Source of the DNA: a virus
Direction: 5' to 3' (one strand)
Virus record (IMG/VR): IMGVR_UViG_3300022701_000153
Location: 1-40,751 of that record
DNA: 40,751 nucleotides
Positions 15,904 through 40,751 of this stretch are shown one piece after another. How positions within the stretch are numbered: position 1 is the stretch's first letter; every line of letters begins with the position of its first letter. The notes under the pieces were generated by a model. It made no database searches, was not told the origin of the DNA, and saw only the letters and a program-made list of their open reading frames with translations. The translations under genes were made by a program, and so were the position numbers.

Positions 15904-15952
15904 GTATTGAGAAAAAAAATCTTTTATATTACCGGCGATATAGTTATTCTAA

Positions 15953-17190: not shown

Positions 17191-18464
17191 CAGAGCTGTC
17201 AAAAGTTATATTACCTTCATTTTATGACTTCTGGAAAGTTGTAAGAGACGGTGTATATGCAGGACTAAAAAAAACATTCTTTGTTGCAAAGGGCGGACGT
17301 AATAGTTCGAAGTCAACAACAATATCAATAGCTTGTCTGTTATTACTTATACAGTTTCCTATTACAATTTTAGCAATACGAAAAGTAGCAACGACCCTTC
17401 AGGAGTCAGTTTACGAACAGTTGAAAGAAGCTGCGCTATTACTTGATATAGAAGACCAATTCATATTCAATAAAAATCCTTTGAGAATAACATACAAAGG
17501 TCGTGGTAATATGATAATCTTTAGGGGTGCGGACGACTCACAAAAAATAAAATCAATCAAAGTATCAAAGTATCCAATATCAGTAGTTTGGATAGAGGAG
17601 TTAACTGAGTTCAGAACCGAGGATGAAGTTTCGACAATAATCGATTCTGTTTTGAGGGCGGAACTACCGGGTAATTTATCTTACAAGTTTTTCTTTTCAT
17701 ACAACCCACCGAAACGAAAACAGCATTGGGTTAATAAGAAATACGAAACTCAATTTATACCTGATAACACTTATATACATCACTCCGATTACAGAACAAA
17801 TCATTTCTTGTCATCTCAGACACTACAAGAAATAAATATGATTAAGGAAACAAATCAGCATAAATATCGATGGGTATGGTTAGGTGAGCCTATAGGTGGC
17901 GGAATCATTCCATTTGATAATTTAGTTTTTAGGGACATCACAGACGAAGAAATAAAATCATTTGACAATATACGCCAAGGGCTTGATTGGGGTTATGCTG
18001 CACATCCTGCTTGTTTCGGACGAATGCACTTAGACAAAACTCGAAACAAACTTTATATTTTTGATGAAATATTTGGCATACAACTGAGTAACAAATACAT
18101 GGCTGAGGAAATAAAGAAAAAAGAATATCATAATGACGAAATAATAGCAGACAGTGCCGAGCCTAAATCGATAGACGATTTGAAAGATTATAGTATCAGA
18201 ATTACCGGTGCTGTTAAGGGACCGGGTTCGGTGGAATACGGTGAGAAGTGGTTAAACGATCTTGATGAATTGGTTATTGACCATAATAGATGTCCGAACA
18301 TTGCTAGGCAATTTGAAAACATAGATTACAAAGTCGATAAAGATGGAAATATCAAAAGTGCATTAGAAGATATAGAGAACGACGCTTGCGACATGGTTAG
18401 GTATGCTTGCGAACGTGACATGGAGAGAAGCACGATCAGATTTTTCAAAACAACGGTGGGGTAA
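17187..18464 (+). CDS. terL: terminase large subunit (PBSX/SPP1-type)
   Basis: The ATPase and nuclease that packages DNA into the prohead (425 aa). The N-terminal ATPase has the variant Walker A KGGRNSSKST (35-44) and Walker B VVWIEE (133-138). The RNase-H-like nuclease has GLDWGYAAHPACFG (about 267-280, first catalytic Asp D269), IIADSAEPKSIDDL (about 317-330, D320) and NDACDMVRYA (about 397-406, D398 and D401). The length is usual. It follows terS with an ATGA overlap. Confidence 0.95.
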   Translation: MTELSKVILPSFYDFWKVVRDGVYAGLKKTFFVAKGGRNSSKSTTISIACLLLLIQFPITILAIRKVATTLQESVYEQLKEAALLLDIEDQFIFNKNPLRITYKGRGNMIIFRGADDSQKIKSIKVSKYPISVVWIEELTEFRTEDEVSTIIDSVLRAELPGNLSYKFFFSYNPPKRKQHWVNKKYETQFIPDNTYIHHSDYRTNHFLSSQTLQEINMIKETNQHKYRWVWLGEPIGGGIIPFDNLVFRDITDEEIKSFDNIRQGLDWGYAAHPACFGRMHLDKTRNKLYIFDEIFGIQLSNKYMAEEIKKKEYHNDEIIADSAEPKSIDDLKDYSIRITGAVKGPGSVEYGEKWLNDLDELVIDHNRCPNIARQFENIDYKVDKDGNIKSALEDIENDACDMVRYACERDMERSTIRFFKTTVG

Positions 18465-24085: not shown

Positions 24086-24934
24086 ATGGCAATACAAAAT
24101 TTTATTCCAACAATCTGGTCTGCAAACTTAATTGAATCCTTAAAAAAGATTCATGTATTTGCATCTGTCGCTAATCAGAGTTATCAAGGGCAAGTAACGG
24201 AACTCAACGGTAAAGTAAAAATAATGCAGATTAGTGATGTAACTATAAACGCATACTCTAAAGATAGTGACATAACAATCCAAGATTTAGACGACGCTGC
24301 AACCGAGCTGGTCGCGGATCAAGCCTATGAGTTTGGTTTTAAGACAAATGACGTGGAAGCAGTGCAACAGAAACCAGCTATAATGAGGTCAACCCTTGAT
24401 AATGCTGCTTATGGTTTTAGGGACACGGCAGATACTTATATGGGCGGTCTTTATGCGCAAGCTGGACTAACGAGCTATTCAACAGGTACAACCCCGTGGA
24501 ATGTAACTTCTCTTAATGTCGAAGATGTCCTTTTAGATATTAAAGAAAAAATGGCACGAGTACCAAAAGATGGAAGATTTATAATCTGTCCTGAATGGTT
24601 TCACAATAAATTAATTACAGCAGGTCTTGCTTCGAAATCTTCTACAGATGAATTGTTCGCAAATGGTAAGGTAGATAGAGTGCAGGGATTTGATATTCTG
24701 TTATCCGAAAACGTAAGTGCATCAACTGGCGCTCCTACTTGGGACGAAACAAGAATAATCGCCGGAGTACGCGGTCAATCTTTTGCTTATGTTGATGCTA
24801 TTACAAAGATACGAGCCTATAATCCTGACAAACGATTTGAAGATGAAGTAATTGGTCTATATGTATTTGGTGCGAAGATGTTAAGGCCTGAAATGACTTG
24901 CACGGCGTATGTCGATAAAACAGCAGAAGCTTAA
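24086..24934 (+). CDS. major capsid protein (HK97 fold, P22 coat-like)
   Basis: The 282-aa sequence starts MAIQNFIPTIWSANLIESLK and has the P22-like coat pattern: ANQSYQGQVTELNGKVKIMQ, DLDDAATELVADQAYEFGFK, then RFIICPEWFHNKLI and GFDILLSENV. No delta-domain cleavage site or protease is apparent. A good AGGA site and its place after the scaffold fit the most highly expressed phage gene. It forms the icosahedral shell. Confidence 0.88.
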   Translation: MAIQNFIPTIWSANLIESLKKIHVFASVANQSYQGQVTELNGKVKIMQISDVTINAYSKDSDITIQDLDDAATELVADQAYEFGFKTNDVEAVQQKPAIMRSTLDNAAYGFRDTADTYMGGLYAQAGLTSYSTGTTPWNVTSLNVEDVLLDIKEKMARVPKDGRFIICPEWFHNKLITAGLASKSSTDELFANGKVDRVQGFDILLSENVSASTGAPTWDETRIIAGVRGQSFAYVDAITKIRAYNPDKRFEDEVIGLYVFGAKMLRPEMTCTAYVDKTAEA

Positions 24935-26068: not shown

Positions 26069-26668
26069 ATGGCATTTGTTAGATGTGAATTTTGCCTCAG
26101 ACCAATAAGACAACGATATATAAAAGTACATGAAAAAACTTGTTCTAAAGCTAGGCGTGCGGCAAAATTAAAAAACAATAAGTCTATCACTCAATCTCTT
26201 GAGTATCGGCAGAATCTATTAGAAAAATTTGTAACTACACAAGAATATGATTTGAAGTCATTAACTGATATTCAATTCAATGATCTAATAGATCGCCTTA
26301 CTGTTCTTAAGAAACAACGTGAAGAAAAAGAAAAAGAGCTTTCAGACAAAGCAAAAGAAAAGAAACTGAAGGCTGAGGAACTAGAAAAACTCAAGGGGAA
26401 AAAGGCTGAAGAATTAGAAGCAAAAAAAGAGAAAGAAGAAAAAGACCGGTTAGAACAAATTGAATCAGAGAAAAAGCGGGAAGCAAATCTGAAAGAGAAA
26501 AGAGATACTATCAAAAAGTCTTTCAGAAAACCATCACCGCCGCCCAAAACAGAAGACGAAAAGACCGAAGACGATATAGAGAAACTAGCTAAAGTCGCGG
26601 AAAAATCACTAGATAAAGTCAAAAAGAAACCGGTTAAGAAAAAATCTAAAAAAAAGAGTAAGAAATGA
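26069..26668 (+). CDS. zinc-finger and charged coiled-coil protein (199 aa)
   Basis: C6-x2-C9 and H21-x3-C25 (FVRCEFCLRPI, KVHEKTCSKA) form a C2HC zinc-finger. A very charged continuous helix follows (about residues 75-160, EKEKELSDKAKEKKLKAEEL and onward), and the end is a Lys-rich tail (KKPVKKKSKKKSKK). Position between head and connector genes suggests a virion or assembly part, perhaps a DNA-binding internal protein. No family recognised. Confidence 0.55.
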   Translation: MAFVRCEFCLRPIRQRYIKVHEKTCSKARRAAKLKNNKSITQSLEYRQNLLEKFVTTQEYDLKSLTDIQFNDLIDRLTVLKKQREEKEKELSDKAKEKKLKAEELEKLKGKKAEELEAKKEKEEKDRLEQIESEKKREANLKEKRDTIKKSFRKPSPPPKTEDEKTEDDIEKLAKVAEKSLDKVKKKPVKKKSKKKSKK

Positions 26669-27039
26669 AAAAATTACTAATGTTGTTATTCATTGTTGGA
26701 ATTAGTTACTCACAGACGGTGGTTTATGAAGATGCTTATTTTTATGCAGATTCAGTTAGTGAATCTGTTTCTTTGAGTAGAAATCAGTTCTTACACGGTA
26801 TATTCATTCCGCAGGGCTTGGCAGAATACATTACTTTCCAAACCAGCTATGATGGGACTACTTATTATCCAATAGTTAATGCTGACTCGACAGACTATAT
26901 AGTAATAATTGATTCTAGTCAATCTAATGCAGTACCATTACCGGAAGATAAATTCAGAGCTTGGAAATATTATAAGTTCTTGATTGAAGCAGATATTGCA
27001 GATACTAGCAACATTAAAGCAATAACCGGGAATAGATAA
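26665..27039 (+). CDS. predicted secreted protein with Q-rule signal peptide (124 aa)
   Basis: The N-terminus has KK, a hydrophobic core and the site SYS|QTV (cut after residue 16). The mature part has YADSVSESVSLSRNQFLHGI and TSYDGTTYYPIVNADSTDYI, a small beta-sandwich resembling phage structural proteins and possible head or connector decoration. It overlaps both neighbours, so it belongs to the structural operon. A Sec signal is not expected for a part assembled in the cytoplasm. One of four such genes. Confidence 0.65.
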   Translation: MKKLLMLLFIVGISYSQTVVYEDAYFYADSVSESVSLSRNQFLHGIFIPQGLAEYITFQTSYDGTTYYPIVNADSTDYIVIIDSSQSNAVPLPEDKFRAWKYYKFLIEADIADTSNIKAITGNR

Positions 27040-27581
27040 TGATAATTACGGTAGATGAAGTCAATGCAATATTGGGGTATTCTTATGAATATGATTCTAG
27101 AATAAAGAAGCTGATTCCGTTTGTGCAGAATCAGATCGTTGACTATTGCAACAACTCATTCCTTGACTGGAATATTTATATAACGGCTTCTACAATATCA
27201 TTTCTTACTAGGACTATCACAGATTCAAATTCTGGTTTTATTGATGCTGAGTTTTATCGTGGTTGTAATATCAAAATCTTGGACTCGAAATATAATAATG
27301 GCGTATATGAATTAAAAAGCGTTGCAGCCGGTTCGATGGAAATAGTTGAAGACTTTAATCAATCATTTGTTCAAGAGGATGCTGATAATACGATAACGAT
27401 ATTAAGGGTGAAGTTCCCGGAAGAAATCAAATTAAAGACTGCAATGTTGATCAAATCATTTATCGAAGGGAAAGGGCAGTTAGTAAAATCCGAATCATTA
27501 CCTGGTGGTTATTCTGTCACATTCAAAGACGATTTAGAAATAATGTCAATGTTCAATCAGTGGAGAAAACCATATAAATGA
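27039..27581 (+). CDS. head-tail connector (gp6/SPP1 gp15-like)
   Basis: The 180-aa protein begins MIITVDEVNAILGYSYEYDS with RIKKLIPFVQNQIVDYCNNS, the N-terminal helix pattern of phage connector proteins that bind beneath the portal. A small beta domain follows (residues 65-120), an FCCH-like module including SGFIDAEFYRGCNIKILDSK. The C-terminal helix contains KTAMLIKSFIEGKG. The order connector, stopper, completion matches SPP1-like phages. Confidence 0.7.
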   Translation: MIITVDEVNAILGYSYEYDSRIKKLIPFVQNQIVDYCNNSFLDWNIYITASTISFLTRTITDSNSGFIDAEFYRGCNIKILDSKYNNGVYELKSVAAGSMEIVEDFNQSFVQEDADNTITILRVKFPEEIKLKTAMLIKSFIEGKGQLVKSESLPGGYSVTFKDDLEIMSMFNQWRKPYK

Positions 27582-27898
27582 GTCTAGCAGATTATCATAA
27601 ACCCTTAACTAGGAGAACGGTTTCTAAAGTTGATGCCGGATCAGGCCAGTTCACAGAAAGTGTGAGCGATACAACATTCAAAGGTTTCATTGCAATGATG
27701 AAAAGCCATGAAGTCAATGCGAATAGAATTATAGGCACTAATGCAATCGCCAGACTATTTACTGAGACTCCATTAAACAAGACTGATAGAGTCATCGACG
27801 CTGAAGGTTATTTTGGTGAAGCCGGTGCAGTGTATGAAGTAGTTGGACTATATAATCAATTTCACAAATTTTATGACCTGAGTCAATTCAATGGCTAA
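27578..27898 (+). CDS. head closure/stopper-like protein (SPP1 gp16-like)
   Basis: A 106-aa protein with a beta-barrel pattern: LTRRTVSKVDAGSGQFTESV at the start and ETPLNKTDRVIDAEGYFGEA, VYEVVGLYNQ near the end. Such proteins plug the connector after packaging. Assigned by size and gene order; sequence similarity is weak. Confidence 0.55.
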   Translation: MSLADYHKPLTRRTVSKVDAGSGQFTESVSDTTFKGFIAMMKSHEVNANRIIGTNAIARLFTETPLNKTDRVIDAEGYFGEAGAVYEVVGLYNQFHKFYDLSQFNG

Positions 27899-28313
27899 AA
27901 GTAATTGGGACATATCAGGTTATATTAACCGCTTAGATGATAAGGGGTTAGAAGATGCTTTTAACGTAATCGGTTCTCAGGTAGTTTCTTGGGCTTCCGA
28001 TAACTTTAGAAAAAGAGGATACTCACCGGCAACGAAAGAGAAGACAGGTAACATGACCGATAATTTATCCTATGCAACTCATAAAAGCCAATCTAGACCG
28101 GAATTTGGAGAACCGCTAGGAAAGGCTTCTAAAGCATCTCTTAGGATAGGCGGTAATGTTGTGTATTTAGCAAGATATGTATTCGGTTTTGTTGACAAAG
28201 ATTCTCTTGGTAGATACTACAATCAAAAACCTAGACCAATATTACAAGATGCTATCGATGACCACAGAATGGAAATTCTTAAAATATTACAAAAGGCTGT
28301 AAATGGTAATTGA
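27891..28313 (+). CDS. tail completion protein (HK97 gp10-like)
   Basis: A 140-aa protein with IGSQVVSWASDNFRKRGYSP at the start, the strand-rich SLRIGGNVVYLARYVFGFVD, and RPILQDAIDDHRMEILKILQ at the end. The last pattern (R-P-x-L-x-x-A) is typical of HK97 gp10/minor tail completion proteins. It overlaps both neighbours. Confidence 0.65.
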   Translation: MAKSNWDISGYINRLDDKGLEDAFNVIGSQVVSWASDNFRKRGYSPATKEKTGNMTDNLSYATHKSQSRPEFGEPLGKASKASLRIGGNVVYLARYVFGFVDKDSLGRYYNQKPRPILQDAIDDHRMEILKILQKAVNGN

Positions 28314-28740
28314 TGTTATACAAAGTGGAATCTACAATAGGCTAGTTGGTGACTCGAATGACTTTCGAACAGCTATAACATTGTCTACAGGTAAGTATAA
28401 AATGTTTTATGAATTTGTCGAACGTGAATACTTTCCAGGGACTACAACGAAGGTCACATTACCTTTAGTGGTTTATAGTTTATCACCGATTAACTATTCA
28501 AGGGATTCAGCAAGTGAGTTCCCGATTACTAACATTAATTTTAACGTTGCAGGAAACACAAGTATAGAAGCGCAAGAAGTAGCCGGTTATTTAGTCGATA
28601 GATTAGAAAACTCAGAGGATAGTCTATCATTTACCGGTTATTCAGTTGTTTTCATTAAGAAAGAATCGATCATCCCGTTGGGTAGAATAGACCAAGTTTG
28701 GAATGTATCGGTTAGATTTTTACTAGAGTTACAAAAATAA
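28303..28740 (+). CDS. tail terminator-like protein
   Basis: The protein (145 aa) begins MVIDVIQSGIYNRLVGDSND and has PLVVYSLSPINYSRDSASEF, a build like the tail-terminator/DUF3168 group that caps the tail tube. Gene order before the tail tube supports it. Confidence 0.6.
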   Translation: MVIDVIQSGIYNRLVGDSNDFRTAITLSTGKYKMFYEFVEREYFPGTTTKVTLPLVVYSLSPINYSRDSASEFPITNINFNVAGNTSIEAQEVAGYLVDRLENSEDSLSFTGYSVVFIKKESIIPLGRIDQVWNVSVRFLLELQK

Positions 28741-28749
28741 GAGGAAATA

Positions 28750-29124
28750 ATGGCAAAGATAAGCGGAAGTGAAGGTGCAGTAACTTATGATTCCGGGACT
28801 GTGGATATAACAGAGTGGGGATTAACTATTGATGCACCTATATTTGATTCAACTGATTCCAGTTCCGATGGGTGGAGAGAAAAAACAGCAACCGGTTGGA
28901 AGAATTGGACTGGAACATTTTCAGGATGGTTACAGGGTGGAGTAGCGGCTGAAGCTCTTGGTTCTGCTGCGACATTAGTCTTAACTGCTGCAACTGGTAT
29001 TACGTTCACCGGTAGTGCGATACTCACTCAAATGAATCCAACGGCAAACATTGCAGAAGGAACGGGCATACCCGTAGCATATACATTTGAAGGCACTGGT
29101 GAATTAACTCAAGCTAATCCGTAA
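28750..29124 (+). CDS. major tail tube protein, paralogue 1
   Basis: A 124-aa protein starting MAKISGSEGAVTYDSGTVDI, with TEWGLTIDAPIFDSTDSSSD, GWREKTATGWKNWTGTFSGW, and ending YTFEGTGELTQ. This is the small tail-tube (major tail protein) family in which strands stack into the hexameric tube. A strong GAGG site precedes it. The next gene is a larger relative. Confidence 0.8.
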   Translation: MAKISGSEGAVTYDSGTVDITEWGLTIDAPIFDSTDSSSDGWREKTATGWKNWTGTFSGWLQGGVAAEALGSAATLVLTAATGITFTGSAILTQMNPTANIAEGTGIPVAYTFEGTGELTQANP

Positions 29125-29134
29125 GGAGGATTAA

Positions 29135-29722
29135 ATGGCTAAAGTAAGCGGAAAGTCCGGGTTAATACGAATCGGAAGTGCTGTTAATATAGGTGATGCA
29201 AACCATTCGGCAGGAGTAGTCACGGTAGACACAACTGCGGCACACGGATTAAGTGCACGGTCAAGGGTCATTATAGAAAGCGTCGTGGGAATGACCGATC
29301 TGAATGATCATTTTTCAGTAGCTACTATCCCCGATACAGATTCATTCACGGTTGCATTAGCAACCGCACAAGGATATACATCCGGTGGTACGGTACAGCA
29401 GATTATTGAGATTACTAATTATTCATTCACCGTGGAAGCTCCTGTAATAGATACAACTGATTCGGAATCGGCAGACAGTGGTTATCGTGAAAAAATCCCG
29501 AAGGGTATTAAGAACTTCACTGGTACGATAGAAGGGTTTTTATATACAAGTACTCTTAAGCCAACGATGGGTTCTGAATTAGAAGCAGTGCTTCAGACTA
29601 ATGGAGTTGATGATTATTCCGGTACGATAATAATCACGAGTGACGCAACAACGTTAGATGTACCTGGAGAGGAAGCTGTAAAAGTATCATTCAATTTTGA
29701 AGGCACTGGTGAACTTAGTTAA
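29135..29722 (+). CDS. tail tube protein paralogue 2 with inserted FCCH-like domain
   Basis: The 195-aa protein repeats the tube pattern (MAKVSGKSGLIRIG at the start, SFTVEAPVIDTTDSESADSG, REKIPKGIKNFTGTIEGFLY and FNFEGTGELS) but has an extra domain at about residues 17-88 (VVTVDTTAAHGLSARSRVII, DTDSFTVA) resembling the FCCH beta domain seen in phage proteins. It could make a minor or tip-proximal ring or a decorated tube. AAGGAGG precedes the ATG. Confidence 0.75.
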   Translation: MAKVSGKSGLIRIGSAVNIGDANHSAGVVTVDTTAAHGLSARSRVIIESVVGMTDLNDHFSVATIPDTDSFTVALATAQGYTSGGTVQQIIEITNYSFTVEAPVIDTTDSESADSGYREKIPKGIKNFTGTIEGFLYTSTLKPTMGSELEAVLQTNGVDDYSGTIIITSDATTLDVPGEEAVKVSFNFEGTGELS

Positions 29723-30071
29723 AAGTGAGATATTAAACCGATATATATCCGAAAGAACTGCACAAGATTTATTTGATCTACAGGAATATATTGATTCATT
29801 AGAAGAACAAACGACACCACAGAATTTATTTATATCTGCTGTTATTGTGAAACAGTCATTGAAGGCTGCTTATAGTAATTTGCCTTTATGGAAAAGACTA
29901 TTCTCATATTTCAAATATCACAAAAGCGAAAGATGGATAATGAAAAAGCTTTCTATGATAGAATTAAATAAAATATGTGAGGAGGTCTTTTCATTAGAGG
30001 GGGTTGATATAAATGAAGTAAAAAAAAAGTCGAAGGACAACGAATATCAAGAGACTACAGCAAAAGGTTAA
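29709..30071 (+). CDS. tail assembly chaperone G
   Basis: The gene starts at GTG (29709, GAAGG five bases upstream) or TTG (29697) inside the end of the tube gene. The zero-frame product (120-124 aa) is helical (ERTAQDLFDLQEYIDSLEEQ) and ends at TAA after GCA AAA GGT. Position between tube and tape measure plus the -1 extension identify it as the lambda gpG analogue that keeps the tape measure protein in solution during assembly. Confidence 0.7.
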   Translation: MNLVKSEILNRYISERTAQDLFDLQEYIDSLEEQTTPQNLFISAVIVKQSLKAAYSNLPLWKRLFSYFKYHKSERWIMKKLSMIELNKICEEVFSLEGVDINEVKKKSKDNEYQETTAKG

Positions 30072-30292
30072 TAACGGCAATATTAAATGTTCCTTTAGAT
30101 AAAGTAGAGTTAAGACCGATTTCAGAATATCATAAAGACTTAGATTTTGTTTTTAACTACCAAAGATTTATAAGAGAGCCTCAATTTGACAAACACGGAC
30201 GTTTAGTAAATGAATTTGAACTTGAGACAAAAGAAGATAAGATTAAACGAGCTAAAAGGGAATTAAAGCAAGTCAATGCCAAAACTAGGTGA
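30062..30292 (+). CDS. T domain of the G/GT chaperone (reached by -1 frameshift)
   Basis: An open frame of 76 codons in the -1 frame has no start of its own and overlaps the G stop. The slip site is GCA AAA GGT TAA (30060-30071): re-pairing one base back gives AAA AGG TTA ATA and the sequence AILNVPLDKVELRPISEYHK onward. It ends 17 bases after the tape measure ATG, as in lambda. The GT fusion would bind the tape measure and recruit tube subunits. Confidence 0.7.
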   Translation, partial: KRLITAILNVPLDKVELRPISEYHKDLDFVFNYQRFIREPQFDKHGRLVNEFELETKEDKIKRAKRELKQVNAKTR

Positions 30293-32249
30293 CACATATA
30301 TAGAGCTTGTAGGAAGAACAGACAAATTAAAAAAAGATTTTAATGAAGCACGTTCTTATGGGGATAGGTCTGCGAAGAAAATGGGGAGTTCTTTTGCTGA
30401 TAATTTTAAGAAAGCACTTGTAGCAGGTGGAATTTTAATAGCATTGAAGAAAGTCTTTGATTTTGCAGCAGATGCTAAAAACGCCGCTCGAGATGCTGAA
30501 GAAATAGGAAGCAAATTTACTCAAGTATTTTCATCTATAAGAGATGAAGCTGAAAAAACAGCGCGATCAATTTCGTCTGAATTCCAGTTGGCTGAATCTA
30601 CAACGAAAAAACTATTAGGTACGACAGGAGATTTATTAGTTGGATTCGGATTCACTGAGAAAGAAGCGTTGAAAATGTCTGAACAAGTCAATCGTTTAGC
30701 CGTAGATTTAGCCTCTTTTAGTAACGTCGAAGGTGGCGCAGAAAGGGCTTCAATGGCGTTGACAAAAGGTCTTCTAGGTGAACGTGAGTCGATGAAACTT
30801 TTAGGAATCTCCGTAAATGAGAATACAGAAGTATTCAAGCAATTAGTAAAACAATATCAGGAAACTGAAGGCGCTTCATTAATTCAAGCAAAGGCTCAGG
30901 CTACATTAACCATTGCATATCAACAATCAGGGAAAGCGATAGGTGATTTTAATAGAACAATTGACAGTACCGCTAATCGTGAAAGAATTTTACAGGAACA
31001 AAACAAACAATTGACTGAAGATATTGGCAGGGATACAGTTCGGGTATGGAGAGCGTTCTTGACGGTTATTATGGACGTTAATGAAGAATTCACAGAATCA
31101 AACAAAAAACTGAGTGTCGTTGGTGGTATATTCAAATCGTTGGGAACGGCAGGAATAGTCTTGGTCGGAGTTATAAGAGCTATAGGGACATCGTTAGGTT
31201 CAATTATTGCTGTAGCTGCACAAGTAAATAAGGCAATGAATCCTTTCGGAGGTAATTTCTTAAATTTTGATGCTTCTAAAAAAGCGCTTGAATTAGGTCA
31301 AAAAGAATTATTCGATGTATTTAACACTACCATAGAGGGCTTGAATGAAATTTGGAAAGAAGGGACTGAAGAAATAAAAGCAACACAAGCAGTAAGCGAT
31401 GGTGGCTTAATAAAGAGTTTGATGGGTGATCCAAAACAAGTAGAAGAAAGCCTAGATAAAGCATTTGATGATTTTACTTCTTATGTAGAGGCTATGAATC
31501 AAAGATACGATACTTATATTGAGAGTGTAGAGGAATCAGACACCGAAGCAAACGAAAAAAGAAAATTAGAGTTTGATGAATATGTCCGGAAAATGACAGA
31601 AGAATATAATGGATATATTCAAGCAGTCAGAGATAAAGATCAGCAGTTAGCTAGAGAAAGATTAAATGCAGTGTCCCAATTAGGTGATCAAATACAAAGG
31701 GCTTTCGACCCGGACGGTTCGGGGTTGCTCTCGATTCTTAACAGAGCTTTACAAACAGCGATTCAAATAGCACAGGCGATAAGAACGATGAATAGTGGCG
31801 GGGATTCTTTCGTTGGTGGTCTTGGTATTGCAGGTAGTATCATAGGATTAGCCGGAGGATTACTCGGATTAAATAAAGGTGGTTCTGTATCTAACGCTAA
31901 CGGAAAAATTAATTACAATCCTCATAAAAAAGCAGCAACAGGATTAGATAGATTCAAAGTCCCGCCGGGATTTTATAAGGATAATTATTTAATTGGCGTA
32001 CAGTCGGGTGAGACTGTAACGGTAACACCTAATAACTATAACAACAATTTCAATGATGGTAATATAGTCTCGGCAATAAATGGATTAAAAAGTAACTTTG
32101 AAGGTTTATCGAGGTATATAGCCGGTTCACTGGCTAATCAACCGCCGGTAATAGTCACGTTGCCGGATGGTACAGTCATCGGTACATCAGCACAATCGGG
32201 GATTAACAAGCTTAATCGTGCAGGACATAATTTGAGTGAGATCGGATAA
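30276..32249 (+). CDS. tape measure protein
   Basis: A 657-aa protein that sets tail length. It has an N-terminal coiled region (KLKKDFNEARSYGDRSAKKM), a hydrophobic span (KALVAGGILIALKKVFDFA, about 46-64), a second one at about 285-320 (GTAGIVLVGVIRAIGTSLGS), and a Gly-rich hydrophobic segment near residue 525 (GLGIAGSIIGLAGGLLGLNK). With about 1.5 angstrom per residue, a tail near 100 nm is expected. The start overlaps the T frame. Confidence 0.88.
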   Translation: MPKLGDTYIELVGRTDKLKKDFNEARSYGDRSAKKMGSSFADNFKKALVAGGILIALKKVFDFAADAKNAARDAEEIGSKFTQVFSSIRDEAEKTARSISSEFQLAESTTKKLLGTTGDLLVGFGFTEKEALKMSEQVNRLAVDLASFSNVEGGAERASMALTKGLLGERESMKLLGISVNENTEVFKQLVKQYQETEGASLIQAKAQATLTIAYQQSGKAIGDFNRTIDSTANRERILQEQNKQLTEDIGRDTVRVWRAFLTVIMDVNEEFTESNKKLSVVGGIFKSLGTAGIVLVGVIRAIGTSLGSIIAVAAQVNKAMNPFGGNFLNFDASKKALELGQKELFDVFNTTIEGLNEIWKEGTEEIKATQAVSDGGLIKSLMGDPKQVEESLDKAFDDFTSYVEAMNQRYDTYIESVEESDTEANEKRKLEFDEYVRKMTEEYNGYIQAVRDKDQQLARERLNAVSQLGDQIQRAFDPDGSGLLSILNRALQTAIQIAQAIRTMNSGGDSFVGGLGIAGSIIGLAGGLLGLNKGGSVSNANGKINYNPHKKAATGLDRFKVPPGFYKDNYLIGVQSGETVTVTPNNYNNNFNDGNIVSAINGLKSNFEGLSRYIAGSLANQPPVIVTLPDGTVIGTSAQSGINKLNRAGHNLSEIG

Positions 32250-33610
32250 TGGCTTATAGTTTACATCATAAATATAGCGGTAGTTGGGTAGATATTTCGG
32301 ATTATCTAAATAGTGAACCATTCGTACCTTATGTCGATCGTAATAGAGATTATACATTGAGATCAACAGGTTTTGATATGTATATTAATTTTAATTATAG
32401 TAACCTGATTTCAAAAAATGATGAGATTAAAGTTGAGGATGGATCGAGCAATGTTATTTTTTCTGGATATGTATCTAAATCAAGTATGAACTATACACAA
32501 CGTAAGATTATTGTTAATGTCGAAAGTCATCTAATGTTATTATCTAGTAGTGTTATCACGGATAGTCTAAAAGCTGTTTTTGGTATAGCAGCAGCAAACT
32601 TTACAGGAGCAAGTAATTTTTATATTGAAGATGGTACACCGACAGAGTTTGACCCAGATTTAGTAGTAGATACTGGACACGGTCTTTCAAATGGTGATAG
32701 AGTTATGTTTGATGTAGGCGGTGATAATATAGAAGCATATCAAGTGTATTATGCGAAAGTAGAAGATGTTAATAAATTTGAAGTACATACAAATTCATCA
32801 TTGACATCACCAATACTTGACTTAATGGACATTGATGGTATTGGCGGAACTTATATTTCCGGTGCGGCGATTAATGAAGATAAATATTTCACCGATAGAG
32901 TGCAGGTATTATTTGCAATTCAGAGTATGTTTGATGATGTAGGATTAAGCCTAACAATCACCGGTATGGATAGTTCTTTAGTGGGGCAGTTTGTGGCGAA
33001 CTCTAGTACGGTTAATTTCCATTTAGATGATTTCTCAATTTTATTTGATGATATGTGGAATATAAATCAGTCTGAATACGATACTATTGATAAAACGAGA
33101 TTAATTACATATAGAGATTTCATTTCTGAATATTTTACTCAAACATCTACAGTAATTAAATGTATCGGAGAAAAGGCATACCAATTAGTAAGAGGAGAGT
33201 CTGAAGAATATACTATCAATGATTTGAATGGTCGCTATGAGAGTAATGATGTTGAACCGAAATATTCAGGGGTTAAATATGAATTGAAATATCAAGGTGA
33301 TTCTATAGATGATCTTGAAACAGGTGACGGTACAATAGATATATTTGAAAACTATGTATTAAGATTTGGTCAAGCGAATCAAGGAGGTACATATAATAAT
33401 GAAATCTGGTTGCCTACAAAGAATTCACTTACACCTACTATTAGTAACGTCGGGTTAAGTAAAAGAATACGATCGTTGACTCAAGGGTATAATGAAAAGA
33501 AATACACAGCTCTATTGGAAACATCTTTCAAACAAGTTGTAGAAAATTATATCTGTATAGCAGAAATGAATAAGGTTTCTGAAATAATTCAAGAGGACGA
33601 TTATGCCTGA
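32249..33610 (+). CDS. tail tip/distal tail-like protein (453 aa)
   Basis: It follows the tape measure with a one-base overlap, where distal tail proteins stand. The N-terminus (SWVDISDYLNSEPFVPYVDR) is like a tail-hub beta domain. Residues about 132-205 (VVDTGHGLSNGDRVMFDVGG) look like an inserted FCCH-like domain, as in the second tube protein. The C-terminal part is unknown. It probably forms the hub of the tail tip. Confidence 0.6.
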   Translation: MAYSLHHKYSGSWVDISDYLNSEPFVPYVDRNRDYTLRSTGFDMYINFNYSNLISKNDEIKVEDGSSNVIFSGYVSKSSMNYTQRKIIVNVESHLMLLSSSVITDSLKAVFGIAAANFTGASNFYIEDGTPTEFDPDLVVDTGHGLSNGDRVMFDVGGDNIEAYQVYYAKVEDVNKFEVHTNSSLTSPILDLMDIDGIGGTYISGAAINEDKYFTDRVQVLFAIQSMFDDVGLSLTITGMDSSLVGQFVANSSTVNFHLDDFSILFDDMWNINQSEYDTIDKTRLITYRDFISEYFTQTSTVIKCIGEKAYQLVRGESEEYTINDLNGRYESNDVEPKYSGVKYELKYQGDSIDDLETGDGTIDIFENYVLRFGQANQGGTYNNEIWLPTKNSLTPTISNVGLSKRIRSLTQGYNEKKYTALLETSFKQVVENYICIAEMNKVSEIIQEDDYA

Positions 33611-34115
33611 TTATAATGTTTTTGGATTAAATGACCCGGTTATTGAAGGAACTGGCGATCCAGATAGTGATTCGGTTATTTTATATAAAAGCGTTATTGA
33701 AAGTATGTTACTTACTGACCCTAGAGTGTTTGAAGGTGAAAGTCCGCTTACAGGGTATAGAAATTTCGAACTATTATGGGAACATTCGGAGTTTAATATA
33801 CTTGTGAGGGCTGCAAAATATGATGGTACTGCGGCAACAGGCAATAGAGATGCTAAGGAAATATTTACTAAGTTAAGAGGGTATAACGGCAAGGTGGTTA
33901 ATTTCAAACTACATAGAGATCATACAACTGATGATGATACATTTGGTAACTATATAATGACATCTGAAGACTCTGATATAGTTGCAGACTTCTTTTGTTT
34001 AGTTAAACCATTTTACTATGAGGACACACCTTGGGATAAGAACTATTTACAATTACTTGTTCAACTAAAAAGCATTGACCCGACATCTGTTGAGTCAATG
34101 GCGGCTGATTTATGA
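33603..34115 (+). CDS. tail-tip protein, tandem paralogue 1 (170 aa)
   Basis: The sequence LLTDPRVFEGESPLTGYRNF, ELLWEHSEFNILVRAA and KEIFTKLRGYNGKVVNFKLH is clearly related to the next gene (TDPQVYEGESTITGKRLFEL and later). No known domain is recognised. Its place between hub and fibres suggests a baseplate or fibre-attachment part. Confidence 0.6.
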   Translation: MPDYNVFGLNDPVIEGTGDPDSDSVILYKSVIESMLLTDPRVFEGESPLTGYRNFELLWEHSEFNILVRAAKYDGTAATGNRDAKEIFTKLRGYNGKVVNFKLHRDHTTDDDTFGNYIMTSEDSDIVADFFCLVKPFYYEDTPWDKNYLQLLVQLKSIDPTSVESMAADL

Positions 34116-34591
34116 TATACCCGACACCTAAAATAACGATAAGCAGTACAGACTATATTATAAATAACAGTTATTGTGATCCTGTTTTTACTGATCCGCA
34201 GGTTTATGAAGGTGAATCGACTATAACAGGTAAGAGATTATTTGAATTAGTCGGCGAACGATCTCATTTTGTTGTGTTCGTTTATATCGAAAAAAGGATT
34301 GATCCTAAAGCTGCATTGTTATTATTAAGATCGTTCCTTGGTGTTAAGGCGGAGAAGTTTTATGTAGATAAAGACGGCAGGGCGGTGAGAGCAAGAAAGG
34401 GCGGTGATGCTTCGTTTTATATAACAAGAGTTGAACCGCTATACATAGATAATTTATTAAACTATACATATATAATAATGAGGTTGGATTCAACAGACTA
34501 CATAAGACCGCTAACAGAACCTCATACTTATTGGGTAGATAAAGATGAAACTTTTATTACAACAAAAGATGGTAAAAAAATTATTTTCTAA
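34112..34591 (+). CDS. tail-tip protein, tandem paralogue 2 (159 aa)
   Basis: A relative of the previous gene with shared TDP-x-V-(F/Y)-EGES and (D)xKxxxxxLRxxxG segments; it lacks the longer loop. The end overlaps the following fibre gene. Likely forms a mixed ring with its neighbour. Confidence 0.6.
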   Translation: MIYPTPKITISSTDYIINNSYCDPVFTDPQVYEGESTITGKRLFELVGERSHFVVFVYIEKRIDPKAALLLLRSFLGVKAEKFYVDKDGRAVRARKGGDASFYITRVEPLYIDNLLNYTYIIMRLDSTDYIRPLTEPHTYWVDKDETFITTKDGKKIIF

Positions 34592-37500
34592 AATATTGTT
34601 AGCATTGTTATTAATTGTTTCTCTCAATGCACAAGATTCTACAACGACAATTAGAGAGTTGCCGCTTAGAACAGCTTTGTCAGGTGGGGATGCGTTTTAT
34701 GTTATGACTGCTACGGATGATTCTTATCATTCTTTGCTTGATAGTCTCAAAACATTCATATCAGACTACATAACCGGCAATCAGAACACGTGGACGGATA
34801 ATCAGACTTTTGAGGATATAACACAATTTACAGCACAAACAACCTTTTGGAATCAAACTGATTTATATGGTAACGTTTACCTTAATGCGCCAGTTGAATT
34901 AGATACGGATGCCGAGTTTGACGGTGATATGGATTTTACATTAGACTCACAATTTATATTACCGCAAAGAAGCACTAATACTACTTTGGGAAGTATGCGA
35001 CTATTAACCGATCCTGAAAACGGTAGTAAAGTAGCGGTAGGTTTTGTAACTGAAGCAACTAACGAAGAATATCTAGCAGATAGAACTTGGGTTAACGAGT
35101 GGAAGGACACAGCCGATATAGGGATTGACTTAGCGGATATAAAATATAAACCGTTAAGTGTCGCAGTTACCGGTGTAGACTCGGTATTACAAGCTAGTGG
35201 AAGCATTAGCGTGTATGAATTAGCACATTTGGATAATGTCAATCTCAACATCCAAACTCAATTCAATAGGATACAGGATGATACAACAAATTGGAAAACT
35301 GCTTATACTAAACGAGTAGATACTTGGAATTATCCTTTATACTTTAATTCCAATACAGCATCGTTATTATATAACACTACTCATTTCACTACTTCAAGTA
35401 ATCAATTAACGGCTAATCAAATAACCTTTGCAAGTAACAACGGAGTCACTGGTAATAATGTAAATTTAGGCGGTACGCTTACTATATCCACTCCTCAGGA
35501 TTTACAAACAACGGCTAGTCCGACATTTGATGACCTTACATTAAACGGTGAATTAAATCAAGAGGGAATAGGAGCTAATACTTTTGACGGTGATCTTGAG
35601 ACGGATAATTATGTATCTCAATTAACAGGTTGGCAAATATCGGCGGCTGGTGCAGGGGACTTTAGAGAACTATACGCTGATGAAATGTATGTTAAAGCAT
35701 TCATCACGGATATATCACAAGCTCTTGCCGGAAGTGATTTCGTGACTAAATCAGTTGCTATACTTTCACGTGATTTTACAACTCCGGCAACTTCGAGCAC
35801 GATATATGTAGAAGACTTACCAGGGCAAGCCAACACGGCGGTTTTTGAAACAGGCGACTGGATAAGATTAAGAATAATTAACAGAACGGTAGGAATTGTA
35901 GTTAGTGATTTTTGGGGAACGGTTTCAAGTTACTCTGATCTTTCGGACGGTGAGCAGAGTTGGACTCTGACTAGACAAACGGGTACATCTTCACAAACTA
36001 TTTATAAGGGTGCGGTTGTATTGGATTACGGAACATCCGGCGATGCTGTAATAGAAAGGACTGTTATCGGTTCTAATGCACCTTACGGTCGTGTAGCAAC
36101 TTGGACATCGAATCCATATACAGGCGGCAACTATGAAGTATTAGTTCAGTATGGAATACTTGACGGAATATCGGGGTTATCCGGCGCTGGTTTTTATGCG
36201 AAGGATAATATATATATAAGTGATGTATCAGGCGGGACTGGTATTGAGTTTGTATCTTCAACAACAAAATCGGTAACGTCCGGTTTCAGTGCCTGGAATC
36301 CTTCTAATCCAAAATTGTTTGTTGGTAATTCGAATTATTATCTGGACTGGAATAATCTTTCGGCAGGTGTGCTTAATATGAAAGGTAGTATAGTCATTAC
36401 AGGCGGTTCGGGTATTGGGAACTTAACAGATGCGAACCTTGACAATATTGATGACGGAAGTACTTACGGCAGAATATTACAAACTGATATTTCAGCAGGT
36501 CATATATTACTTAGTGAAACCGTTGGTGATCTCGATGATGTTACAGATGGAACTAATTACGGTAAGGTATTAAAAACCGATATATCTTCCGGTCATATCC
36601 TATTATCTGAAACAGTCGGAGATTTGGACGATATTTCAGACGGAACAAATTATGGTAAAATATTAAAGACAGATATTAGTTCCGGTCATATACTTTTAAG
36701 TGAATCGGTTGGTGATTTAGATGACATTGATGATGGAACTAATTATGAGCGTGTAGCTGCAACTGATATCTCGGCAGGTCATATTACATTAGTTTCGCAA
36801 CAAGCAAGTATAAATATTAATTCAACTACATTCGGTAATAGTGGCATCCAGTTACAGTATAATGGTGGTAGTCCTAGAGCGTATATCGGTAATGGTTCTA
36901 CTCAGTATTTGCAATATACTGGAGGTAGTTTATCATTTTCAGGTGCTCTTAGTGCAGCAACCGGAACTTTTGCCGGAAAGATAACAGCCGGTACGGTGCA
37001 GATAGGCAATGATGTTGCAAGTTATTATGATGGCATCTATATGGCTACGAATGATTATTGGTTGAGCAGTGGATATTTCAAGGCTGCCAACGGGCGTATA
37101 TCATTTGATGCTTCTGGATTTCTGATTAAAAGTTCTTTATCTGGCTCACGGATTGAGTTTAGTTCTGCTAGTGGGGTTGTGATGAAGGATGACGTGGGGA
37201 CTTATGGTTCTTTCGGTACGGACGGCGATATAGTAGCTCAAAATGTTAGTGCTTTCTATGTTTCGAGCGGTAATTATAATACAACAGGTAATTATCGAAA
37301 GGACGGAACATCTTTAGCGTTTAGTATATCCCCCGGAAATTCAAAGTATTATGGGACTAACTCAGGCGGCACAATAGGTTATTATGATCTTCCTTCGGGT
37401 GGTGGCTGGTCTGGAAACGCAACATCTGATTTGGATATGAATACTTATGATATTCTAGATGCAGGTGAAATTACAGCCACGTCAGTCATTATAGATGATG

Positions 37501-37847
37501 CCTCAACAAACACAACTATTAAGCTCGGTACTAATACAGGTGAATATAACGAATTATTTTCAAGGGGCATCGGAGCAACTTCGAATTATCGGGATTTTCG
37601 AATCGCAGCAAACGCAATTGAACTTAGGACCGCCACGATAGATGAAGGCACCGCTTCTGCCTTGGCGTTAAGCATAAATAATAATCAGGATGTAGTTTTT
37701 TCAAATGATATTATTCTAGGCAGTCCATCGGTTGTAACTACTTCGAGCAGCACGGGAACGGCCGGAATGATTAGTTGGGATGCCTCATATATTTATGTCT
37801 GTATCGGTACGAATACCTGGAAAAGAATATCGCTATCATCATTTTAA
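34569..37847 (+). CDS. tail fibre protein with Q-rule signal peptide and 31-aa repeats (1092 aa)
   Basis: I prefer the ATG at 34569 (MVKKLFSKILLALLLIVSLN, cut at LNA|QDS after residue 21) over one eight codons earlier. The large beta-rich body has phage fibre features: repeated TTNxxGxx-type strands, four tandem 31-aa repeats (36441-36812), and a C-terminal GTAGMISWDASYIYVCIGTN head similar to fibre tips. The signal peptide is unusual for a virion fibre. Confidence 0.7.
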   Translation: MVKKLFSKILLALLLIVSLNAQDSTTTIRELPLRTALSGGDAFYVMTATDDSYHSLLDSLKTFISDYITGNQNTWTDNQTFEDITQFTAQTTFWNQTDLYGNVYLNAPVELDTDAEFDGDMDFTLDSQFILPQRSTNTTLGSMRLLTDPENGSKVAVGFVTEATNEEYLADRTWVNEWKDTADIGIDLADIKYKPLSVAVTGVDSVLQASGSISVYELAHLDNVNLNIQTQFNRIQDDTTNWKTAYTKRVDTWNYPLYFNSNTASLLYNTTHFTTSSNQLTANQITFASNNGVTGNNVNLGGTLTISTPQDLQTTASPTFDDLTLNGELNQEGIGANTFDGDLETDNYVSQLTGWQISAAGAGDFRELYADEMYVKAFITDISQALAGSDFVTKSVAILSRDFTTPATSSTIYVEDLPGQANTAVFETGDWIRLRIINRTVGIVVSDFWGTVSSYSDLSDGEQSWTLTRQTGTSSQTIYKGAVVLDYGTSGDAVIERTVIGSNAPYGRVATWTSNPYTGGNYEVLVQYGILDGISGLSGAGFYAKDNIYISDVSGGTGIEFVSSTTKSVTSGFSAWNPSNPKLFVGNSNYYLDWNNLSAGVLNMKGSIVITGGSGIGNLTDANLDNIDDGSTYGRILQTDISAGHILLSETVGDLDDVTDGTNYGKVLKTDISSGHILLSETVGDLDDISDGTNYGKILKTDISSGHILLSESVGDLDDIDDGTNYERVAATDISAGHITLVSQQASININSTTFGNSGIQLQYNGGSPRAYIGNGSTQYLQYTGGSLSFSGALSAATGTFAGKITAGTVQIGNDVASYYDGIYMATNDYWLSSGYFKAANGRISFDASGFLIKSSLSGSRIEFSSASGVVMKDDVGTYGSFGTDGDIVAQNVSAFYVSSGNYNTTGNYRKDGTSLAFSISPGNSKYYGTNSGGTIGYYDLPSGGGWSGNATSDLDMNTYDILDAGEITATSVIIDDASTNTTIKLGTNTGEYNELFSRGIGATSNYRDFRIAANAIELRTATIDEGTASALALSINNNQDVVFSNDIILGSPSVVTTSSSTGTAGMISWDASYIYVCIGTNTWKRISLSSF
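36441..36812 (+). repeat. four tandem 93-bp (31-aa) repeats in the fibre gene
   Basis: Units of the type DDVTDGTNYGKVLKTDISSG plus HILLSETVGDL repeat with period 93 bp from 36441. The first three are well kept and the fourth diverges at its end. Such repeats lengthen fibre shafts and can vary in number. Confidence 0.8.
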
Positions 37848-37860
37848 ATAAGAATTATAA

Positions 37861-38141
37861 ATGAACTGGCTAGTCGAAAAAGATTTTGAAGTGCCGCAAG
37901 GCATTGAAGGAAAAATGTTGGAAATATATGTTCCGGGTAATTACTCATCCGCGAATGGTTATACTACCAAGTAGTATGGATGATAGTATCAGCAGGAGAA
38001 ATATTAACAGGTGTATATTCGTTCCATTGTGGTTCGACAGAATTGTCACAGGACATACAAATTATGAGAAAAGATAAAATAAATAAAACAGATAATAACT
38101 TTTTCATCGCTTACTCCAATTTGGTTTACTTGAATATATAA
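37861..38141 (+). pseudogene. frame-broken small gene (about 93 aa if joined)
   Basis: The first frame gives MNWLVEKDFEVPQGIEGKML up to a TAG at 37972. The -1 frame, open from 37941 to a stop at 38139, continues naturally with YYQVVWMIVSAGEILTGVYS. Joined at NGY, it looks like a whole small phage protein. A one-base indel (real or in the assembly) is most likely; no typical slip site is seen. It is followed by the next gene 15 bases later. Confidence 0.5.
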
Positions 38142-38156
38142 AATTAAAGGGAAATT

Positions 38157-38438
38157 ATGAAACAAATAATAACAGTAATAATATTTTTATCAGTGGTCAC
38201 ACTTTCATCTTTTGCACAAGAGAAAGATTCTTTGTCGATTAAGATGGAGAATCTAATAATACAGGCAAAAGTAATTAACAGCGATCTATCTGAATCTAAG
38301 GATAAGATCGAGCAGTATATCATACTAAGATATGAGGAAGAAAAGAAAATAGAAACTTTGAAGCAGGAACTAAACGCAATCCTAAGAGAGATGCAAAAAC
38401 TGAGAGAAAAACAAAATGATAGAACCGATAGTAAGTAA
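38157..38438 (+). CDS. signal-peptide coiled-coil protein, possibly spanin-like (93 aa)
   Basis: The N-terminus MKQIITVIIFLSVVTLSSFA has a possible Q-rule site SFA|QEK (after residue 20). The rest is a heptad-patterned charged coil (NLIIQAKVINSDLSESKDKI, ETLKQELNAILREMQKLREK). This could be a secreted coiled-coil or, if the signal stays uncut, an inner-membrane spanin (Rz-like). No Rz1 lipoprotein is seen inside or next to it. AAAGGG precedes the ATG. Confidence 0.55.
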   Translation: MKQIITVIIFLSVVTLSSFAQEKDSLSIKMENLIIQAKVINSDLSESKDKIEQYIILRYEEEKKIETLKQELNAILREMQKLREKQNDRTDSK

Positions 38439-39078
38439 CATTACAATGGAGCAGGGTTACAAGGGCGAAGTTATATTGTGGCGGGCTGGCGACTGGACTG
38501 GTCATACAATTAAATTCGGAATGAAAGATAATCTATCAGATGAAACCGAAGACCTCACAAAACTTAGTACAGGGATTGATGAATTAAGCACAACATATTT
38601 ATCCGGTATGACAATGTTTACCATTTCATTTGACCAAGCCGATACGACTGTCTTAACGGCAGGCGTATTTGAATACAACATTTGGGCTTATGATAATTCA
38701 GAACGAGTTCCAATATTCAAAGGGAAATTTATATTAAATCAGGCAGTAGTAACCGATGCAATGTCCGCAACTGCACCGACATATATAACACCTGCTTACA
38801 CAAGCAGGTATATGTTTATGTTAACTCCACCGGATACTTTTACAACATTAATTACACCCTCAGGTTTTGATGGGACACTTTCGGTTGCTCTTGACGGTGA
38901 TGTAATTGTTATCAGTTCAACAGAAGATGATTTCGATAATAGATTTGGAACTGATCATATAAGAGGATATGCAAGTGAATGGAGAGTAAGCGCAAGTGAG
39001 TACAGGATAAGGTTAGCTCCCGGATGGGAGACAGGATTTGAAACAATTATTGTAGACTTTTTCAAAAAGGCATCATAA
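38416..39078 (+). CDS. virion structural protein, fibre-base-like (220 aa)
   Basis: The sequence begins MIEPIVSNITMEQGYKGEVI with LWRAGDWTGHTIKFGMKDNL, a pattern common to phage tail fibre-base or Ig-like proteins ('D-W-T-G-x-x-x-K-x-x-x-K'). Its C-terminal half carries TPAYTSRYMFMLTPPDTFTT and more beta strands. It overlaps both neighbours. Likely binds fibres or forms part of the tail tip. Confidence 0.6.
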   Translation: MIEPIVSNITMEQGYKGEVILWRAGDWTGHTIKFGMKDNLSDETEDLTKLSTGIDELSTTYLSGMTMFTISFDQADTTVLTAGVFEYNIWAYDNSERVPIFKGKFILNQAVVTDAMSATAPTYITPAYTSRYMFMLTPPDTFTTLITPSGFDGTLSVALDGDVIVISSTEDDFDNRFGTDHIRGYASEWRVSASEYRIRLAPGWETGFETIIVDFFKKAS

Positions 39079-40751
39079 TGAAAAAATTATTATTACTACT
39101 TATAATACCAATAATGTTATTAGGGCAGGCTAATGAACCTCCTAGAATAGCATATCTATCTAACGTTTCCGACACCGCAGATGTATTGAAAACATTGATA
39201 GCATTGAAACTAACAGCAGCAGATACGGCTAATCTTGACAAATACCCAAGAGCCGAAATTGATGCAATGCTAGAGAATATTTCTTTAGATAATTATTACA
39301 GTTCATCTCAAATAGATTCAATAATCGCATTGTATTATACACAAACTGAAATCGATTCCTTATTAGACTTGTACACGACTAGGATAGACAGTACTAATAA
39401 TGCGGTTGCTTCTAATGATACGGATATAGGGGACATTCAAACTAAAAACAGCAATCAATCCGATTCTATTTCGACCGCTTATAGTGATATAGGAAATATA
39501 GAGACTAAGAACAGTAACCAGTCTGATTCAATCGCAACAGCTTATAATGATATTTCAACAGAGCAAGGTATTAACAACGGTCAGGCGGATAGTTTAATTG
39601 TCACTTATGATTCACTTGACAGACATCGAATAGAGATTGATTCAGTTGAATCGGCAATAGGAAGCAATGATACTGAAATTTCGGCTTTGCAAGACTCAAC
39701 TAACTTGTTTTCAGATACTTTGAAATCACACGATACTAGAATTAATAATAACTTATCCGCTATATCAAATGAGCAGGATTCGACAACAAGACACCGTACG
39801 GAAATTGATTCTATCGAGGCTGCTATCGGAAGTAACGATACCGAAATATCCGCATTACAGGATTCAACGAATAAGTTTTCAGATACATTAAAAGTACACG
39901 ATACAAGACTGGAATCGATTGAATCTGACTCTACTAGATATGTTGAGTGGAAAGATACAACGAATACTATTGTTACAATTAATAGATTGATTGATTCGTT
40001 GGCGGCGTACTTGAAATTACTTGATATAAATTCAGAGGCTAAGTTTGAATCTGTTTTGGGGTTCAGTATTACTGTTCCTTCGGAGTTAGATTACTTTACG
40101 GGGGCAGATATAACCGGAAACGAAACCGCTTTTGATGGATGGGATAAAAATGCCGGTGATGACTTTGACGGCAGTTATAATTCACTTGATGATGTACCTG
40201 CGAATATAGATGAAGATGCAACCGATGATATGCTGAAAGCGGCGATGCCGGACAGCCTTGACGGGTATGTTAAGCCAGATACATCCGGTATAGGTGACGG
40301 ATATTCGATTGTCTGGAATCAAAGTCTCGCTACTTGGGGAGTTGATTACATAACAGGGCTGTGGACATCAAATAGTTATGGTCTTTATTATGACGGCAAT
40401 ATTGCAATTACAGACACAATTAAGATAAGCACAGATATGTATTTATCTATTGCCGGTCTCTACAGAACCAATACGGGAGAAGGAGCTTACACGTTTGGCA
40501 ATGCTGCCGCTGGTGGCGCACGTCCGATCATAATAAACTCTGGCGATAGTGAGGCAGGTGCACCGATTGGGACGTATATGGATTTTTCCTTTGATACACA
40601 GGCAAGCGGGAATGCTGACCCTCGTGGCATTGCCTATGCTAACAATGCGTTTTGGATTGTGGATTATGTCGATGTCGAAGTTTACAAGTACAATACAGAC
40701 GGCACTTATGCAAGTTTTTCCTTTGATACACAGGCAAGCGGGAATGCTGAC
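39078..40751 (+). CDS. fibre-like protein with Q-rule signal peptide, coiled coils and propeller repeats (cut by window edge)
   Basis: The frame starts at 39078 (TAATG coupling) and runs off the right edge (at least 558 residues). The N-terminus MKKLLLLLIIPIMLLG is cut at LLG|QAN. Then come coiled-coil repeats of the type EIDSIEAAIGSNDTEISALQ with DSTNKFSDTLKVHDTR, two copies about 60 residues apart, an unknown middle, and from about residue 500 the 44-aa repeat FSFDTQASGNADPRGIAYAN plus NAFWIVDYVDVEVYKYN, which resembles NHL-like propeller blades. It may be an adhesin or receptor-binding fibre. Confidence 0.7.
   Translation, partial: MKKLLLLLIIPIMLLGQANEPPRIAYLSNVSDTADVLKTLIALKLTAADTANLDKYPRAEIDAMLENISLDNYYSSSQIDSIIALYYTQTEIDSLLDLYTTRIDSTNNAVASNDTDIGDIQTKNSNQSDSISTAYSDIGNIETKNSNQSDSIATAYNDISTEQGINNGQADSLIVTYDSLDRHRIEIDSVESAIGSNDTEISALQDSTNLFSDTLKSHDTRINNNLSAISNEQDSTTRHRTEIDSIEAAIGSNDTEISALQDSTNKFSDTLKVHDTRLESIESDSTRYVEWKDTTNTIVTINRLIDSLAAYLKLLDINSEAKFESVLGFSITVPSELDYFTGADITGNETAFDGWDKNAGDDFDGSYNSLDDVPANIDEDATDDMLKAAMPDSLDGYVKPDTSGIGDGYSIVWNQSLATWGVDYITGLWTSNSYGLYYDGNIAITDTIKISTDMYLSIAGLYRTNTGEGAYTFGNAAAGGARPIIINSGDSEAGAPIGTYMDFSFDTQASGNADPRGIAYANNAFWIVDYVDVEVYKYNTDGTYASFSFDTQASGNAD
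40583..40751 (+). repeat. 132-bp tandem repeat, first copy and start of second
   Basis: The second copy begins at 40715; its 37 bases inside the window are identical to 40583-40619. The period of 132 bp equals 44 residues and keeps the frame. More copies probably lie beyond the edge. Identity at DNA level suggests a recent duplication or gene conversion. Confidence 0.75.

Follow-up and report, generated by a model that had tools for sequence, protein, structure and literature searches.

Predicted Sec signal peptides ending before glutamine recur among structural genes of a tailed-phage clade

Four predicted signal peptides in the structural region

The window analysed here is the whole of virus record IMGVR_UViG_3300022701_000153 (40,751 bases, classed as linear), and all positions refer to that record. 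Its genome is of the Terminase_3 siphophage type, with genes for terminase, portal, capsid protein, head-tail adaptor, tape measure and tail tip in that order on the plus strand. Four genes of the structural region, named here by their start coordinates, encode proteins with a predicted Sec signal peptide that ends just before a glutamine (Gln+1):

26665 to 27039, plus strand: late protein of 124 residues; predicted signal peptide 26665 to 26712 (16 residues), mature part of 108 residues from Gln; lies between the capsid gene and the head-tail adaptor
34569 to 37847, plus strand: tail-fibre-like protein of 1092 residues; predicted signal peptide 34569 to 34631 (21 residues), mature start QDSTTTIRELP
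38157 to 38438, plus strand: protein of 93 residues; predicted signal peptide 38157 to 38216 (20 residues), then a mature coiled coil of 73 residues
39078 to 40751, plus strand: fibre-like protein, open at the record end; predicted signal peptide 39078 to 39125 (16 residues), a coiled-coil part and a repeated segment

The initial annotation of this sequence had assigned Gln+1 signal peptides to these genes, and all four were recovered where it had placed them, as good Sec/signal peptidase I (SPI) signals by rule-based prediction. With a slash marking the cut, the predicted N-termini are MKKLLMLLFIVGISYS/QTVVYE for 26665, MVKKLFSKILLALLLIVSLNA/QDSTTT for 34569, MKQIITVIIFLSVVTLSSFA/QEKDSL for 38157 and MKKLLLLLIIPIMLLG/QANEPP for 39078. 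Gene 34569 has an earlier in-frame ATG at 34545, and its signal is retained with either start. The signals share Gln+1 with the Q-rule SPI substrates of Bacteroidetes (PMC5837995); here they are phage-encoded in a structural region, and pyroglutamate is predicted.

The rule-based scan considered n-region charge, the hydrophobic core and the -3/-1 rule in the 69 open reading frames (ORFs) of the window. Each of the four genes (4/4) satisfies the Q-rule SPI pattern of n-region charge, hydrophobic core, small residues at -3 and -1 and Gln+1. Two weaker ORFs were also flagged and judged implausible, one lying opposite the gene cluster at 8420 and the other being an N-terminal extension at 15907; beyond the four, the scan of the 69 ORFs returned no plausible gene with a Gln+1 Sec/SPI signal. 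As controls, none of 13,046 internal-Met pseudo-starts passed with a Gln+1 signal, 9 of 4,182 genes in the loci of Bacillota-type relatives passed with Gln at +1, and when the four N-termini were shuffled at constant composition, 0.05-0.4% of the shuffles passed. The binomial probability of four in 69 is 1.7e-5.

A second scorer, blind to Gln, was run on the window, on 318 genes of clade contigs and on 4,200 control genes. It recovered the same four window genes; for 39078 it favoured a cut two residues downstream (GQA/N), so that the exact site is less sure there. Among the 318 clade genes it found 28 signal-peptide-like starts, 23 with Gln+1 (15 at the best site and 8 at a neighbouring site that also fits). 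The other five comprise two good signals with another +1 residue (G001 18865 and G003 22116) and three doubtful ones. The control genes yielded 46 signal-peptide-like starts, none with Gln+1 at the best site. The 23 Gln+1 signals have A, G or S at -1 in 23/23 cases, a mean length of 18 residues and a mean core of 14; because this set was curated with Gln in view, a count of 23 of 23 is descriptive.

Recurrence in relatives and in fixed gene slots

Gln+1 signals in structural genes are a recurrent trait and not a product of chance. We found 23 different Gln+1 signal peptides, and two with another residue, across nine groups of related metagenomic phages. Terminase relatives at 59-67% identity to the window (contigs L002, L003 and L007, together G001; L004, or G002; L005, or G003; L016; L017) all carry Gln+1 signals in structural genes. 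The remaining terminase relatives (61% identity or less) have none in structural genes, and those with a named host are Bacillota prophages; some of these contigs are short, and absence there means little, while many cover head and tail. A maximum-likelihood terminase tree unites the six carriers in a single group (support 96/98, present in 96% of bootstrap trees) nested among Bacillota phages. The trait is also found in the capsid relatives L184/L185, L198 and L200, of which L184 has a different terminase.

The neighbouring genes that define the slots in the window are the following:

17187 to 18464, plus strand: terminase large subunit (Terminase_3), the sequence used for the phylogeny
19801 to 21339, plus strand: portal protein, 48% identical to the G002 portal
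24086 to 24934, plus strand: major capsid protein (phrog_267, E 5.4e-39)
27039 to 27581, plus strand: head-tail adaptor (phrog_1161, E 2e-8), directly after signal-peptide gene 26665
30276 to 32249, plus strand: tape measure-like protein without a signal peptide, assigned by position and length; its C-terminal part is similar in G001 and G002
32249 to 34591, plus strand: three tail-tip-like genes without signal peptides, upstream of the fibre; 32249 matches phrog_9370 tail fiber protein (E 0.0027)
38416 to 39078, plus strand: protein of 220 residues without a signal peptide, flanked by two signal-peptide genes (phrog_1084, unknown function, E 7.6e-6)

The slot between the capsid gene and the head-tail adaptor holds 26665 in the window, three signal-peptide genes in G001, one in G002, two in G003 and four consecutive ones in L200, including a 977-residue fibre-like protein. 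The window adaptor is 32% identical to G001 7464, which comes after the three signal-peptide genes of G001. One signal-peptide gene follows the capsid gene in each of L198 and L017 (where the L017 contig ends). In L184 such a gene precedes the capsid gene, and in L185, from the same phage, one comes after it. The tail-fibre slot is occupied by a signal-peptide gene in the window (34569), G001 (17787), G003 (19634) and L184 (20193). Beyond its fibre slot, G001 encodes another signal-peptide protein, a beta-helix, before the replication genes begin; this interval showed no candidate for a fibre lacking a signal.

Three of the four window genes overlap their neighbours. Gene 26665 has an ATGA overlap with the upstream stop, and its own stop overlaps the ATG of the next gene; 39078 starts on the stop of the preceding gene, and 34569 starts within the end of the gene before it. 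Because of these overlaps, the three are probably co-translated with ordinary cytoplasmic head and tail genes.

Several minor observations concern these genomes. The record stops inside gene 39078, where positions 40584-40751 hold a near-exact repeat (SFDTQASGNAD...) that probably halted assembly. A small gene at 37862-38141, between 34569 and 38157, seems to be broken by a frameshift: its short ORF hits a stop and likely continues in another frame. Bacillota phages have the terminases closest to that at 17187-18464 (isolates reach 58% identity at most), although the Q-rule suggests a diderm host. A portal search in viral contigs gave no match. IMGVR_UViG_3300036884_000045 (L090-L092) is a 50,132-base contig with about 9 kb repeated at both ends, the pattern that circular permutation of a genome of about 41 kb would produce. 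Midway along the G001 late operon, L090 9384-9878 resembles, by eye only, a phage endolysin beside holin-like and membrane genes.

Mature proteins and conservation of the signal

By its similarity to known fibres, 34569 is classed as a putative tail fibre. Over 285 residues it is 35% identical to gp20 of Salinibacter phage M8CR30-2, annotated 'structural protein; long tail fiber', which occupies a similar late position and has no signal by the rule-based scan. The C-terminal tip of 34569 is common to the G003 signal-peptide fibre, which matches tail phrog_17312, and its N-terminal region to the G001 fibre. Gene 39078 matches phrog_17481 minor tail protein (E 3.5e-5), possibly through the coiled coil alone. 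The position of 26665, near the capsid gene and before the head-tail adaptor, fits a capsid decoration gene. The label 'fibre- and decoration-like' given by the initial annotation suits 34569, 39078 and, by position, 26665; the mature 38157 protein is a coiled coil. Among the relatives, the domain of the L017 signal-peptide protein recurs in a signal-less protein of Synechococcus phage S-SCSM1, annotated 'virion protein'. Secreted-type domains (fn3, beta-helix) occur in related signal-peptide proteins, and G003 22116 has both.

Two putative head-surface families could be followed across phages. Family A comprises G001 4530, G002 8109, L198 4192 and L200 9695, with 29-39% identity to L198 across the mature region; family B comprises G003 10965, G003 11469 and L200 8970. 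The signal is kept in all members found (4/4 and 3/3), at about 30-40% identity. The signal-peptide fibres of the window, G001 and L184 likewise have in common the signal and a mature N-terminal motif, xIRxLPxxTxLxxxD; the N-terminal match between the window and G001 fibres (E 7e-4) lends modest support. The middle domain of 34569, on the other hand, recurs in signal-less fibres of G002 and of Salinibacter phages. Conservation of the signal therefore holds for families A and B and for three fibres alike at the mature N-terminus, and homologues lacking the hydrophobic start, the outcome that the initial annotation had named as counting against its idea, turned up by half, for this middle domain only.

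A structural model of family A (predicted local distance difference test, pLDDT, 75; predicted template modelling score, pTM, 0.69) points to the beta-sandwich fold of XepA (from PBSX) and YomS (from SPbeta) of Bacillus subtilis. Its best matches among solved structures were XepA (Z 13.0, 2.7 A over 104 residues) and YomS (Z 12.9, 2.1 A over 101), the next standing at 9.9. XepA is exported late and the yomS gene adjoins tail genes; no sequence match to either was found, and family A differs in having a predicted Sec signal peptide.

Export, docking at lysis and rival readings

Tailed viruses are thought to build their fibre and head parts in the cytoplasm. The signals described here suggest that fibre-like and head-surface-like parts may leave the cell interior before virus assembly is complete, and export of the four proteins to the periplasm is very probable. 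Our preferred reading, to which we assign a probability of roughly 45%, is that the exported proteins are virion accessories that dock on particles at lysis; we infer export itself, processing, periplasmic residence and docking. The four proteins would be products of late virion genes with genuine Sec signal peptides. Late in infection the host SecYEG would translocate them, signal peptidase I would cut before Gln, and a host glutaminyl cyclase would cap the new end as pyroglutamate. They would then fold and wait in the periplasm during the cytoplasmic assembly of heads and tails, 34569 and 39078 being destined as tail fibres, 26665 as a head-surface decoration and 38157 as a coiled-coil partner. 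Lysis would mix the two compartments, and the exported accessories could dock on finished particles. In other phages, soluble outer decoration proteins can attach externally to heads that are already complete.

Docking at lysis would explain why signals sit on fibre- and decoration-type genes in fixed virion slots. In favour of a virion role are the recurrence of the trait, the single terminase clade, the fixed slots, the signal kept in families A and B, the virion-like mature parts, the lack of a signal-less fibre candidate in the G001 interval and the gene overlaps. We propose, rather tentatively, that the clade assembles its outer parts from outside, with fibres and decorations that are Sec-exported, pyroglutamate-processed, kept in the periplasm and joined to particles only at lysis. 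A stay in the periplasm is more likely than a coating of the host surface prior to lysis, because no type IX secretion system (T9SS) or lipoprotein signal was found; a T9SS sorting domain search with NCBIfam gave no match in the window and clade proteins scanned, the C-terminus of 39078 lying beyond the record end.

Several results weigh against docking of virion accessories. The G002 fibre in the slot of 34569 lacks a signal, which indicates that the signal is dispensable for a working fibre. The 'structural protein' labels are those of depositors, and virion function rests on position and partial homology. For 26665 no homologue was found in viral contigs or phages, and searches of Pfam, PHROGs, NCBIfam and PDB sequences gave nothing significant; its structure from a forced alignment was poor (pLDDT 49) and was not used. 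The hhalign probability of 26665 is 0.6% against family A, which is not significant, and a weak 20% against family B, and for these reasons the XepA/YomS fold match of family A is not extended to 26665. A prophage search with the terminase profile against genome contigs returned, by record title, Bacillota genomes only, and no host was found. Family A, finally, matches in fold a protein, XepA, that is exported during PBSX development yet absent from mature particles, although its authors still consider capsid binding possible (PMC6834076).

This last point leads to the main rival account, in which the exported late proteins are not virion parts and act in the periplasm or are released at lysis, where they might weaken the envelope, block reinfection or bind debris and neighbouring cells. 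We regard it as a real possibility, though well short of even odds. Phage lambda Lom is an exported protein encoded among tail genes, and the XepA and YomS scores stand well above those of the other structures. To our knowledge, however, XepA itself has no signal peptide, and the fold match concerns family A and no window protein. The same account gains from Flavobacterium phage 11b, which has a lipoprotein signal gene (L190 12286-12552) between the capsid gene and the head-tail adaptor, the slot of 26665, and from the Porphyromonas gingivalis phages, whose Q-rule genes have been read as possible outer-membrane modifiers (PMC10367356). It leaves unexplained the signal on fibre-type proteins with virion-fibre domains, and G001, seemingly without another fibre.

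For 38157 alone, its size, its coiled coil and a match to phrog_89 Rz-like spanin (E 0.014) would suit an i-spanin with an N-terminal membrane anchor, and export would then be ordinary lysis biology. We consider this unlikely, given the cut-like SFA/Q end and the position of a counterpart in L200, a signal-peptide and charged helical protein of similar size that sits directly after the signal-peptide fibre and before the head-tail adaptor. No lipoprotein (o-spanin) gene was seen in the window either, the record being incomplete at an end that could still hold lysis genes. It is quite improbable that the hydrophobic starts are retained in the virion as membrane-active or anchoring segments: such starts at protein ends might face membranes during entry, but Gln+1, the small residue at -1 and the short core all fit signal peptidase I, and an anchor would need none of them. 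Chance hydrophobic starts or mis-called start codons could appeal to the signals being known by prediction alone, but the internal-Met, shuffle and relative-phage controls and the recurrence in diverged relatives make them a very remote explanation, in agreement with the initial annotation, which had called a chance start in all four unlikely.

Phage-encoded Q-rule genes (PMC10367356) and exported late phage proteins (XepA) are already known. The closest precedent is the P. gingivalis phages (proposed Nixviridae), which, like the window, have genes with Q-rule signal peptides; there they are five genes of unknown function, whereas here there are many per lineage, in head-surface and fibre slots and on fibre-type proteins. 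In the open-licence literature searched we found no report of signal peptides on tailed-phage fibres or decorations, nor an earlier description of a whole clade with signals on fibre and head-surface genes, which does not establish priority. Should the exported proteins be virion parts, the assembly of tailed phages would not be confined to the cytoplasm, and a compartment boundary would time the meeting of receptor-binding parts with the particle; this would be relevant to self-binding to sugars of the host surface ahead of release, and to how a lineage whose packaging genes are Bacillota-like adapted to a diderm host. Should they not be virion parts, they would make up a large set of exported late phage proteins that is conserved but unstudied. 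In both cases, a Gln+1 signal in structural genes could serve as a simple marker of a Q-rule host for unassigned phages.

Gln follows the Sec signal in 71% of cases on average in Bacteroidetes and in 77% in Ignavibacterium (Bochtler 2018, PMC5837995). Because the Gln+1 signals of the window follow this Q-rule, they point to a diderm host of the Bacteroidota or Ignavibacteriota. Among Bacteroidota phage isolates we scanned Cellulophaga phi14:2 and phi38:1 (first 50 kb only), Polaribacter P12002L, Flavobacterium 11b, Bacteroides B124-14, Croceibacter P2559Y, Riemerella RAP44 and Salinibacter M8CR30-2 and M1EM-1; the parts read had no Gln+1 signal in fibre or head genes. Small hypothetical genes with Gln+1 signals occur in the two Cellulophaga phages (L187 9-266 and L188 31090-31383).

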